From assembly GCA_037074765.1 (NCBI GenBank), contig JBAMDO010000220.1, positions 1-64,000 of the forward strand: a stretch of DNA of 64,000 nucleotides, read 5' to 3'. This document shows, in pieces, positions 790 to 1,984 of this stretch. Below the pieces are notes generated by a model. That model had not been told where the DNA came from and searched no databases. It saw nothing but the letters and a program-made list of their open reading frames with translations. This DNA comes from Mansonella perstans. Lineage: Eukaryota; Nematoda; Chromadorea; Rhabditida; Onchocercidae. A program made the translations under genes and the position numbers. Position 1 is the first letter of the stretch; each line of letters begins with the position of its first letter.

Positions 790-1710
790 CTGCAAAGCAA
801 AAGTTCGATATCAACAAACTCTAACACTCTAAGTTGCAACCTTTTTTTCTGATTTTTTAAACATGAAAGAGATCATGAAAATTTCTTCACATTGTTAACT
901 GGTTAATTTTAGATCTTTTCATTAATTAATTAATGAGTAATAACTTAGGGTAATTAAAATTTTCCTGCGAAATTCTTGTGATCGCTAAATGTCATATATG
1001 GTAAGTGATAAGTAGAGTTCTCCTTTTAAAGTTCAATAGAATACGCAAAAACACAAAATTAACCAGATAGAAAAGGTTAATGTAGAATGACAGGTAGCAG
1101 GATGGGAAATTACAAGTAGCTATCAGTTTTTTTTAAAATATTCCTAGTTTTAAAAAAATATTTCACAAATAATCGAGCATTCTTTACAAGTGAATTCATC
1201 ATTAATTAAAATTGTTCCACTAAACTTAATTAGCTATAATTTTATTTTAATTTAAAAATTCTGAAAATTTTATAATAATTTATTGTTTTGCTGCAAACGT
1301 AGAACATTTTACTATGTCTATTATGTTTTATTGATTACTGGGCAAATTTTGGCTTGAATGTTTCATGTGACTAAGTGCAGTTACAAAAGCCAAGCTAGCA
1401 GAAGATGGCATACGATAATAGCAATATCCCAGTTCTAAAATATTTGGCATGTGTCGCGAATTTATAACGCGAAACTTCCACTAATGACATTATAAGCATT
1501 CAATCCTAAGATTGTGATCTAAAGTTATATCTTTTGAATTCATGTAAATTCTATTGTAATCCTCTATTGTGCGCCATAAATAATTCCCTCAATCATTTTT
1601 TCCCTCCTTTATCTGAAATTATATATATATATATAGGATGGTCAATCTTCTAAATTCATTTCACTCTTCACTTCTTCTATTATATCCTTATCCAATTCTT
1701 CCTCGTTAAG

Positions 1711-1846
1711 CCACGTTCGCATTTGTTAAGGTTAAGCCACGTTCGCATTTCTTAATGTTTTGGCCACGTTCGCATTTATTAAGGTTTTATTTACGCTCGC
1801 GTTTGTTAATGTTTTAATCACGTTCGCGTTTGTTAATATTGTTAAT
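1711..1846 (+). repeat. Five-copy 27-bp tandem repeat inside the LTR
   Basis: The unit core is CCACGTTCGCATTTGTTAA. Copies start near 1711, 1737, 1764, 1791 and 1818, spaced 26-27 bp, and grow more divergent toward the SL1 copy. It sits between the TATA-like run and the AATAAA/SL1 block, where U3 enhancer repeats of LTR elements commonly lie. Confidence 0.9.
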
Positions 1847-1872
1847 AAAAGGTTTAATTACCCAAGTTTGAG
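1844..1872 (+). promoter_or_regulatory. AATAAA signal abutting an exact SL1 spliced-leader copy
   Basis: AATAAA at 1844-1849 is followed after one base by the complete 22-nt nematode SL1 (GGTTTAATTACCC...TTTGAG, 1851-1872), with no mismatch to the canonical leader as I know it. The next bases are ATTGAG, not the GT donor that follows SL1 in SL RNA genes, so this is not an SL RNA gene. The SL1 end (TTTGAG) itself resembles a nematode 3' splice acceptor. Confidence 0.9.
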
Positions 1873-1984
1873 ATTGAGTTCTATCGCGCTACGAAACCCT
1901 ACACAATACAACGCCCTATAACGAATCCGCTGGTATATTGTTGGCCGATATCGACCTCTCATAAGAAAAATTCACGATAGCATG

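Follow-up and report, generated by a model that had tools for sequence, protein, structure and literature searches.

Host spliced leader SL1 as a probable R region of BEL/Pao long terminal repeats in Mansonella perstans

The closest described system is that of Brugia malayi, in which an estimated 70% of the genes are trans-spliced and for which Foster et al. (2020; PMC7181701) reported 120 integral SL1s, of which 60 had a PAO element within 1 kb. These authors inferred that copies of trans-spliced PAO RNA had become integrated, and the SL1-sequencing data PRJNA525735 are named in the same paper. The B. malayi case corrects one claim of the original prediction made for the locus studied here, namely, that no nematode long terminal repeat (LTR) with SL1 had been described. 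The SL1s of B. malayi lie beside PAO on the same strand and sometimes on both sides, and the same arrangement was found in relatives of the present element, which is itself a solo LTR. In the available excerpts of that paper, however, SL1 is described as flanking the elements, whereas the position within the LTR, the abutting poly(A) signal, and a role as R region are particular to the elements reported here, as are splice scars, the shuffling of U3 and U5, and the capture of a host mRNA.

Likenesses to several other systems can be drawn. (i) The dinoflagellate DinoRL are genomic spliced leader (SL) relics derived, as proposed here, from reverse-transcribed trans-spliced RNA (PMC12014239). There, the first seven nucleotides of an existing SL are exchanged for a new SL and the remainder persists as a truncated relic, which is the logic of the SL1-TTTGAG scar described below. 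Yet DinoRL are retrocopies of host genes, and the excerpts of that report describe no LTR, R region, or strand transfer at the SL. (ii) RNA of the Caenorhabditis elegans LTR element Cer1 likewise gains SL1 by trans-splicing; according to the excerpted text, a 2.4-kb spliced mRNA occurs with and without SL1, and the 8-kb mRNA is not trans-spliced at that site (PMC3315495). (iii) In Schistosoma mansoni, six SL-bearing genes are transposable or retrotransposable elements; in the part of the report available, they are mentioned in passing as possible assembly chimeras, with no structure given (PMC5832876). (iv) With BEL/Pao elements in general, the present elements share the A17 peptidase, reverse transcriptase (RT), and integrase found in relatives, LTRs of the form TGT...ACA, and a 5-bp target duplication; in contrast, their proposed R consists of the host spliced leader and does not vary between different LTR families. 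Among the matches listed for the open-access PMC literature, the excerpts, which also covered Echinococcus TRIM elements, contained no R-region role, LTR splice scars, U3/U5 shuffling, or mRNA capture of this kind. As far as these partial texts go, SL1 beside PAO elements is already known, and the R role, scars, shuffling, and mRNA capture are apparently new.

The window analyzed here is a stretch of 64,000 nucleotides of M. perstans DNA (contig JBAMDO010000220.1), and its features are listed in Table 1 together with SL1 arrays located elsewhere in the genome. The original prediction had placed in it a solo LTR bounded by a GCATG duplication and carrying an exact SL1 that could not be ascribed to chance, and both statements were borne out. 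The LTR starts with TGTCGCGAAT and finishes with ATTCACGATA. Its last letters are ATA, and those of relatives on C4, C309, and C35 are ACA; by eye, 5-bp target duplications also surround these three relatives. The TG start and the 5-bp duplication of the window LTR are those of BEL/Pao elements. Divergence among its copies peaks at LTR positions 265 to 352. At up to 3 mismatches, SL1 had a single match in the 64 kb, on the plus strand, and none in 100 shuffles, and the reversed pattern had no match on either strand of the genome; a chance origin of the window SL1 was rejected on these grounds. If the TATA-like stretch is the promoter, an outron of roughly 190 nt would possibly remain, and the ATTGAG with which U5 starts is possibly a decayed, older TTTGAG splice scar.

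Table 1. Coordinates of the solo LTR and its parts in the window and of SL1 arrays elsewhere in the genome
Feature	Position	Strand	Remark
Target site duplication, 5' copy	1447..1451	.	GCATG, 5 bp
Solo LTR, 528 bp	1452..1979	+	Defined by borders and target duplication; at least 45 genome matches (40 of 161 candidates scored)
U3 (LTR part 5' of SL1, presumed)	1452..1850	+	
TATA-like stretch, possible core promoter	1620..1635	+	About 215 to 230 nt 5' of SL1
Degenerate tandem repeat, unit resembling CCACGTTCGCATTTGTTAA	1708..1834	+	By eye; in the LTR region of highest variability
AATAAA poly(A) signal	1844..1849	+	Ends 1 nt 5' of SL1
SL1, exact, 22 nt; proposed R region	1851..1872	+	
U5 (presumed)	1873..1979	+	Starts ATTGAG
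Target site duplication, 3' copy	1980..1984	.	GCATG
SL1 arrays	C178:12712-13154, C215:93306-97124, C248:3256-3580		Up to about 10 SL1-like units

The suggestion that the element belongs to BEL/Pao was supported by full-length relatives, in which A17 peptidase, RT, and integrase lie between SL1-bearing LTRs; comparison with these sequences supports the assignment of the window LTR to the BEL/Pao families as a solo LTR. Named relatives of one pol fragment in Onchocerca, Brugia, Loa, Acanthocheilonema, Dracunculus, and Ascaris share 35 to 74% identity with it, the filarial ones being the best (71% identity over 79% for the best B. malayi match); filarial proteins annotated as Pao, RNase H, or integrase make up most of them. 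The family PF05380 (A17 peptidase of BEL/Pao) had 106 matches in the genome. Among the 50 strongest, 13 were located between same-strand SL1s, 16 had an SL1 on one side, and 21 had none. Conversely, 42 of the 198 SL1s without a donor site (see below) lay within 6 kb of one of these 50 matches on the same strand, and 3 lay on the opposite strand. No exact same-strand SL1 was found within 6 kb of the Pao elements at C61:14717, C309:16346, and C333:28881, which have open frames of about 2,400 amino acids. Since 21 of the 50 strong A17 matches lack an exact same-strand SL1 within 6 kb, SL1 is apparently not needed by all Pao elements of this genome. Its use may be restricted to part of the Pao superfamily, and the elements at C61, C309:16346, and C333 perhaps form a related, SL1-free family.

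Exact SL1 occurred 266 times in the genome (75.7 Mb, 539 contigs), against 0 for the reversed control; all counts in this study come from this one genome. The GTAA continuation of the SL RNA donor was present at 68 of these sites and absent at 198, where the next bases were A, C, or T (79 sites), GC (2), GTG (98), and GTT or GTC (19). We read the surroundings of 135 of the 198 sites and grouped them into 110 LTR blocks. Exclusion of a pseudogene (C181:393377) and of two array-internal copies (C129:80350 and C444:3376) left 107 LTRs.

To follow SL1 through copies of the window LTR, we took 37 loci from the match list, which gave 32 distinct alignments spanning the SL1 site. SL1 was exact in 28, intact and followed by a 6-nt TTTGAG in 1, and altered by 1 or 2 mismatches in 3. 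Copies without SL1, the outcome that the original prediction had named against itself, were thus not among them, SL1 being intact in 29 of the 32. The comparison with the flanking LTR that it had proposed gave a divergence of 0.6% for the SL1 window and of 8.7% and 7.7% for the adjacent 22 nt on either side. Only 4 of 507 LTR windows were as conserved as SL1, namely, SL1 itself and those at positions 46, 47, and 51 near the U3 end; since these three equal or exceed SL1, conservation alone proves little. A query made of the head of U5, with SL1 left out and at most 1 mismatch allowed, found 22 places (2 for the reversed control), and SL1 was ahead in all 22. It was exact and direct in 16, exact with a 6-nt insert in 3, exact with the 12-nt insert TTTGAGTCTGAG in 1, and direct with 1 or 2 mismatches in 2. 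Three 3' LTRs (C515:905, C408:18048, and C206:73628) end inside U3, in or near the tandem repeat, and therefore lack SL1 and U5, and no SL1-like site at up to 5 substitutions was found in the DNA read there; we treated them as truncated and left them out of the count of SL1 retention.

The position of SL1 in the LTR is tied to the poly(A) signal. In 97 of the 107 LTRs, AATAAA ends 0 to 2 nt 5' of SL1 (41 at 0, 55 at 1, and 1 at 2), whereas a control with slid anchors gave a mean of 0.1% and a maximum of 1.9%. Eight of the other ten LTRs have near variants, GATAAA, AACAAA, and AGTAAA among them, and two have none. The junction is present in 10 of the 12 U3 clusters described below, and the pattern AATAAA-N0-2-SL1 had no match in IMG/VR viral contigs. 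Poly(A) signals direct cleavage a short way 3' of AATAAA, which would place the 3' end of the RNA about one SL1 length past the signal. At loci L059, L049, and L105, sequences resembling primer-binding sites follow 5' LTRs with the SL1 junction, and they are of at least three kinds (TGGTGCCCGAGG, TGGTGCAGCGAGG, and TGGTGCCACGAG).

Several LTRs carry traces of trans-splicing. Sibling U5s read SL1-GTGTTTCC...TTTATCGAAG and then AATATTGGC, and at C426:13324, SL1 is directly followed by AATATTGGC. The sequence 3' of SL1 at C426 (AATATTGGCTAAG...) matched the sibling U5s by blastn at 67 of 67 bases, and this identity extends into the probable primer-binding site; in the siblings, the same stretch is preceded by SL1 and 52 nt ending in GAAG. 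The perfect identity past the junction indicates that SL1 was joined exactly after an AG within U5. Relative to C474, the U3 of C426 has 3 substitutions and 4 gap columns over 350.

We searched directly after the 135 exact SL1s for repeats of an SL1 suffix and found only two lengths: 6 nt (TTTGAG) at 8 sites and 21 nt at 2, the latter being SL1 without its first base and inexact (2 and 4 mismatches). At the thresholds used, no other length from 4 to 22 nt was found. These are the cuts predicted from the AGs in CCCAAG/TTTGAG and A-G/GTTT, the second acceptor consisting of the preceding A and the first G of SL1; splicing at the final TTTGAG leaves no trace. Both CCCAAG and TTTGAG inside SL1 are weak acceptors compared with the consensus TTTTCAG. 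Scars of the TTTGAG type accompany two U3 clusters; in the pairs at C4, C31, C384, and C410, just one of the two LTRs has such a scar. The C4 pair has no substitution in 350 positions of U3 and 95 of U5, and one TTTGAG is its sole difference, although single duplications such as this one could possibly be explained by slippage. The number of TTTGAG duplications is also inflated by shared descent. A control for 6-nt tandem duplications gave 88 exact boundaries across the 107 LTRs and about 360 offsets, with six each at offsets 20 to 22 (one event in three phases) and twelve at offset 23 (SL1-ATTGAGA); the end of SL1 is thus a duplication hotspot at which relatedness inflates the counts. At C410:15085, SL1 is followed by TTTGAG, TCTGAG, and ATTGAG, which resembles a ladder of successive splice scars with the youngest nearest to SL1.

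An element on the minus strand of C35 joins a U3 to a host gene. It reads U3-SL1-GTGCAAAACA-ATG, followed by 87 codons, the first part of which is the N terminus of ribosomal protein eL6 (Pfam PF03868, E = 4.6e-10; 24 PDB sequences matched, named L6 or eL6). Pao RT sequence begins about 260 nt after SL1 and is followed by integrase and a full U3-SL1-U5 3' LTR, the pol domains being RVT_1 and Integrase_H2C2 in Pfam. ACCAC is found at both outer ends, which suggests that the chimera was integrated as a single unit. The eL6 gene of the host, located at C539, is 96% identical to the C35 segment over residues 1 to 75, and there TTGTAG immediately precedes GTGCAAAACAATGTCG, a sequence in common with C35; the SL1 boundary at C35 is thus the splice acceptor of the eL6 mRNA. 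The simplest account is that cDNA synthesis ran up to the SL1 of an eL6 mRNA and then switched to that of an element RNA, so that a U3 was gained. Comparison of the U3s at the two ends shows 13 substitutions and 16 gap columns over 380, so two template RNAs may have served, although age is also a possible cause. This was the one host capture recognized among the 107 LTRs.

As read from the DNA, the junctions at C426 and C35 and the spectrum of suffix duplications establish that the addition of SL1 at splice acceptors preceded reverse transcription and that U3 was joined precisely to SL1. We propose that the BEL/Pao LTRs bearing SL1 have the order U3-AATAAA-SL1-U5 with host SL1 as the R region, and we consider this reading as a whole probable. 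Its parts differ in strength. The derivation of SL1 from trans-spliced RNA by reverse transcription is almost certain, and its action as R in strand transfer is highly probable. Our leaning is slight in favor of the view that SL RNA supplies a fresh SL1 in ordinary cycles, and there is a similarly narrow balance for the statement that the 22-nt R of each cycle is taken from host SL1 RNA, so that families and host mRNAs share one strand-transfer sequence. In the proposed cycle, transcription would start in U3, probably about 120 to 200 nt 5' of SL1 to judge by TATA-like sites, and trans-splicing of SL1 would take off the outron and leave SL1 as the 5' end of the RNA. Cleavage about one SL1 length past AATAAA would make U3-SL1 the 3' end, and minus-strand strong-stop DNA, ending in the complement of SL1, would transfer to the 3'-terminal SL1 of an element RNA. 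As this R is common to all trans-spliced RNAs, such DNA could jump to the RNAs of other families, which would shuffle U3 and U5, and host mRNA cDNA could be joined to a U3, as in the eL6 capture.

The rival that survives best, although we regard it as unlikely, is that SL1 is a passive relic of trans-spliced copies integrated by one or a few ancestral elements, since inherited as a templated R without renewal, and that the shuffling is ordinary homologous recombination between copies. Descent within a family could indeed explain most of the SL1s, and in the excerpts of their paper, Foster et al. (2020; PMC7181701) infer integration "at some point." Inheritance alone is hard to reconcile with C426, where SL1 was newly added at a U5 acceptor behind a U3 about 99% identical to that of its sibling, and with C35, where the junction is the SL1 of a host mRNA. 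Also against it are the TTTGAG scars, which accompany two U3 clusters and single members of four LTR pairs, and the presence of SL1 directly behind AATAAA in most U3 clusters.

Two origins had been offered in the original prediction. The first, a reverse-transcribed trans-spliced RNA, is upheld and can be sharpened to the R region; the second, mimicry of the leader, is not supported, given the exact joining of SL1 at acceptors in C426 and C35. The second would have GGTTTAATTACC... as the transcription start of the element, selected for translation or export in the manner of a trans-spliced mRNA. The near-perfect retention of the 22-mer and the coincidence of its start with the expected U3/R border fit this idea, but it cannot yield the exact acceptor junctions in the C426 U5 and in the C35 eL6, and the arrangement of TATA-like sites also opposes it. 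TATAWAWR occurs in 89 of the 107 LTRs, and 103 of its 143 matches lie 150 to 249 nt 5' of SL1 (shuffled mean, 6.8; maximum, 18), not at 25 to 49 nt, where there are 2 (shuffled mean, 1.7). We therefore hold mimicry to be very improbable, and the distance of 150 to 249 nt suggests an outron.

LTR halves are shuffled at SL1. We clustered U3s and U5s by end-anchored global alignment (80 nt of U3 and 60 nt of U5) with average linkage at a distance of 0.32; loose single-linkage clustering was discarded because it merged nearly all sequences, since the U5s share CAACTCAAC repeats. The 107 LTRs represent 35 combinations of 12 U3 clusters with 26 U5 clusters. Seven U5 clusters pair with more than one U3 cluster, one of them with four, and seven U3 clusters pair with more than one U5 cluster; one complete four-way set was found (U3 #0 and #3 with U5 #0 and #1). 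At the extremes, U5s of 95% identity accompany U3s of 55 to 57%, and U3s of 97 to 100% accompany U5s of about 50%, against medians of 61% and 53% over all pairs; many of the contrasting pairs with like U3s and unlike U5s include C426, C35, or array copies.

In some elements, the two LTRs agree on one side of SL1 only. From 19 candidate pairs, we used 15, as C515, C206, and C408 did not align over SL1 and C144 represents overlapping loci. Substitutions were present in 12 of the 15, and U3 and U5 differed at a nominal P of <0.02 in C131 (0/350 in U3 versus 3/97 in U5), C410 (19/243 versus 1/106), C424 (11/325 versus 0/170), and C384 (2/348 versus 5/78); after correction for 12 tests, only C384 (P = 0.0028) remains significant. 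Such one-sided differences are unexpected under textbook reverse transcription and could be yielded by two SL1 jumps per cycle, but gene conversion or mistaken pairing could also be their source.

Because the shuffling sits exactly at a shared word and repeats are hard to assemble, the assembler might have joined unrelated U3s and U5s at the common 22-mer, and a similar worry was raised by the S. mansoni authors in the available part of their report (PMC5832876). This artefact is in our judgment highly unlikely, because matching 5-bp target duplications enclose the window LTR and the elements at C4, C309, and C35; scars, the U5 splice deletion, and arrays with 60-nt units are not products of joining at a 22-mer; and the combination of U3 #3 with U5 #0 recurs at separate places (C40 twice and C370).

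More than one SL1-like unit was present in 27 of the 110 blocks (21 with 2 units, 3 with 3, and one each with 8, 9, and 10). Units are often 60 nt apart, that is, SL1 plus a 38-nt spacer, with few-base differences between copies. The arrays of the C215 LTR pair are unequal in length, and its U3s show no substitution. Under the proposed cycle, arrays would grow whenever transfer between SL1 copies went out of register and shrink whenever an inner SL1 was spliced to; the mechanism gives no account of the first inner SL1 in the arrays of SL1 plus 38 nt. Two unusual loci were also observed. At C535:691400-692600, two U3-SL1 ends point toward one another across about 190 nt that contain a short open stretch, an inverted primer-binding site, and U5, perhaps an aberrant product of reverse transcription; the short peptide after SL1 there had no Pfam match. 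In the LTR at C116:45571, U5 stops after about 30 nt and is followed by TPR-repeat coding sequence on the other strand (Pfam TPR_1), which represents an insertion in, or a fusion with, a host gene.

The SL RNA genes of this genome are distinct from the LTR sites. A combination of exon, GT donor, and SL RNA structure defines an SL1 RNA gene, and the window SL1 lacks it: because its next base is A (ATTGAG) and SL RNA genes continue with GTAA, it is not an SL RNA gene. Rfam family RF00198 called an SL1 RNA in all six copies tested on C191 and C518; calls were obtained at C191, C518, and C181 but not in the stretch with the window LTR. C518:7301-28027 holds 67 tandem SL1 RNA genes with a spacing of mostly 307 bp, and no 5S rRNA was found in the 3-kb stretch read at this array. 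The single SL1 RNA copy on C191 has the start of a 5S gene about 250 bp upstream, and C181:393377 is an isolated SL1 RNA pseudogene whose donor GT has become AT (Rfam SL1, 86.3 bits). A reading of the LTR sites as SL RNA genes or pseudogenes was rejected. That SL RNA gene copies or cDNA were put into LTRs, with only the 22-nt exon left, is barely conceivable: this pseudogene does exist, but GTAA-continued SL1s are confined to C518 (67) and C191 (1), the LTR sites stop exactly at the exon end, and the eL6 capture needs a mature trans-spliced mRNA.

In LTR retroelements, the first strand transfer uses the R repeat present at both RNA ends, and trans-splicing, which cuts off the 5' end, should abolish this repeat. 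Given the pervasive trans-splicing in these worms, the survival of LTR elements there is a real question, and the answer suggested here is that the leader itself has been made the repeat. If this is true, one universal R common to host mRNAs would allow a modular evolution of LTRs, in which halves are exchanged freely between families, and would open a route to chimeric genes, in which host mRNAs with their 5' ends are captured behind an LTR promoter.
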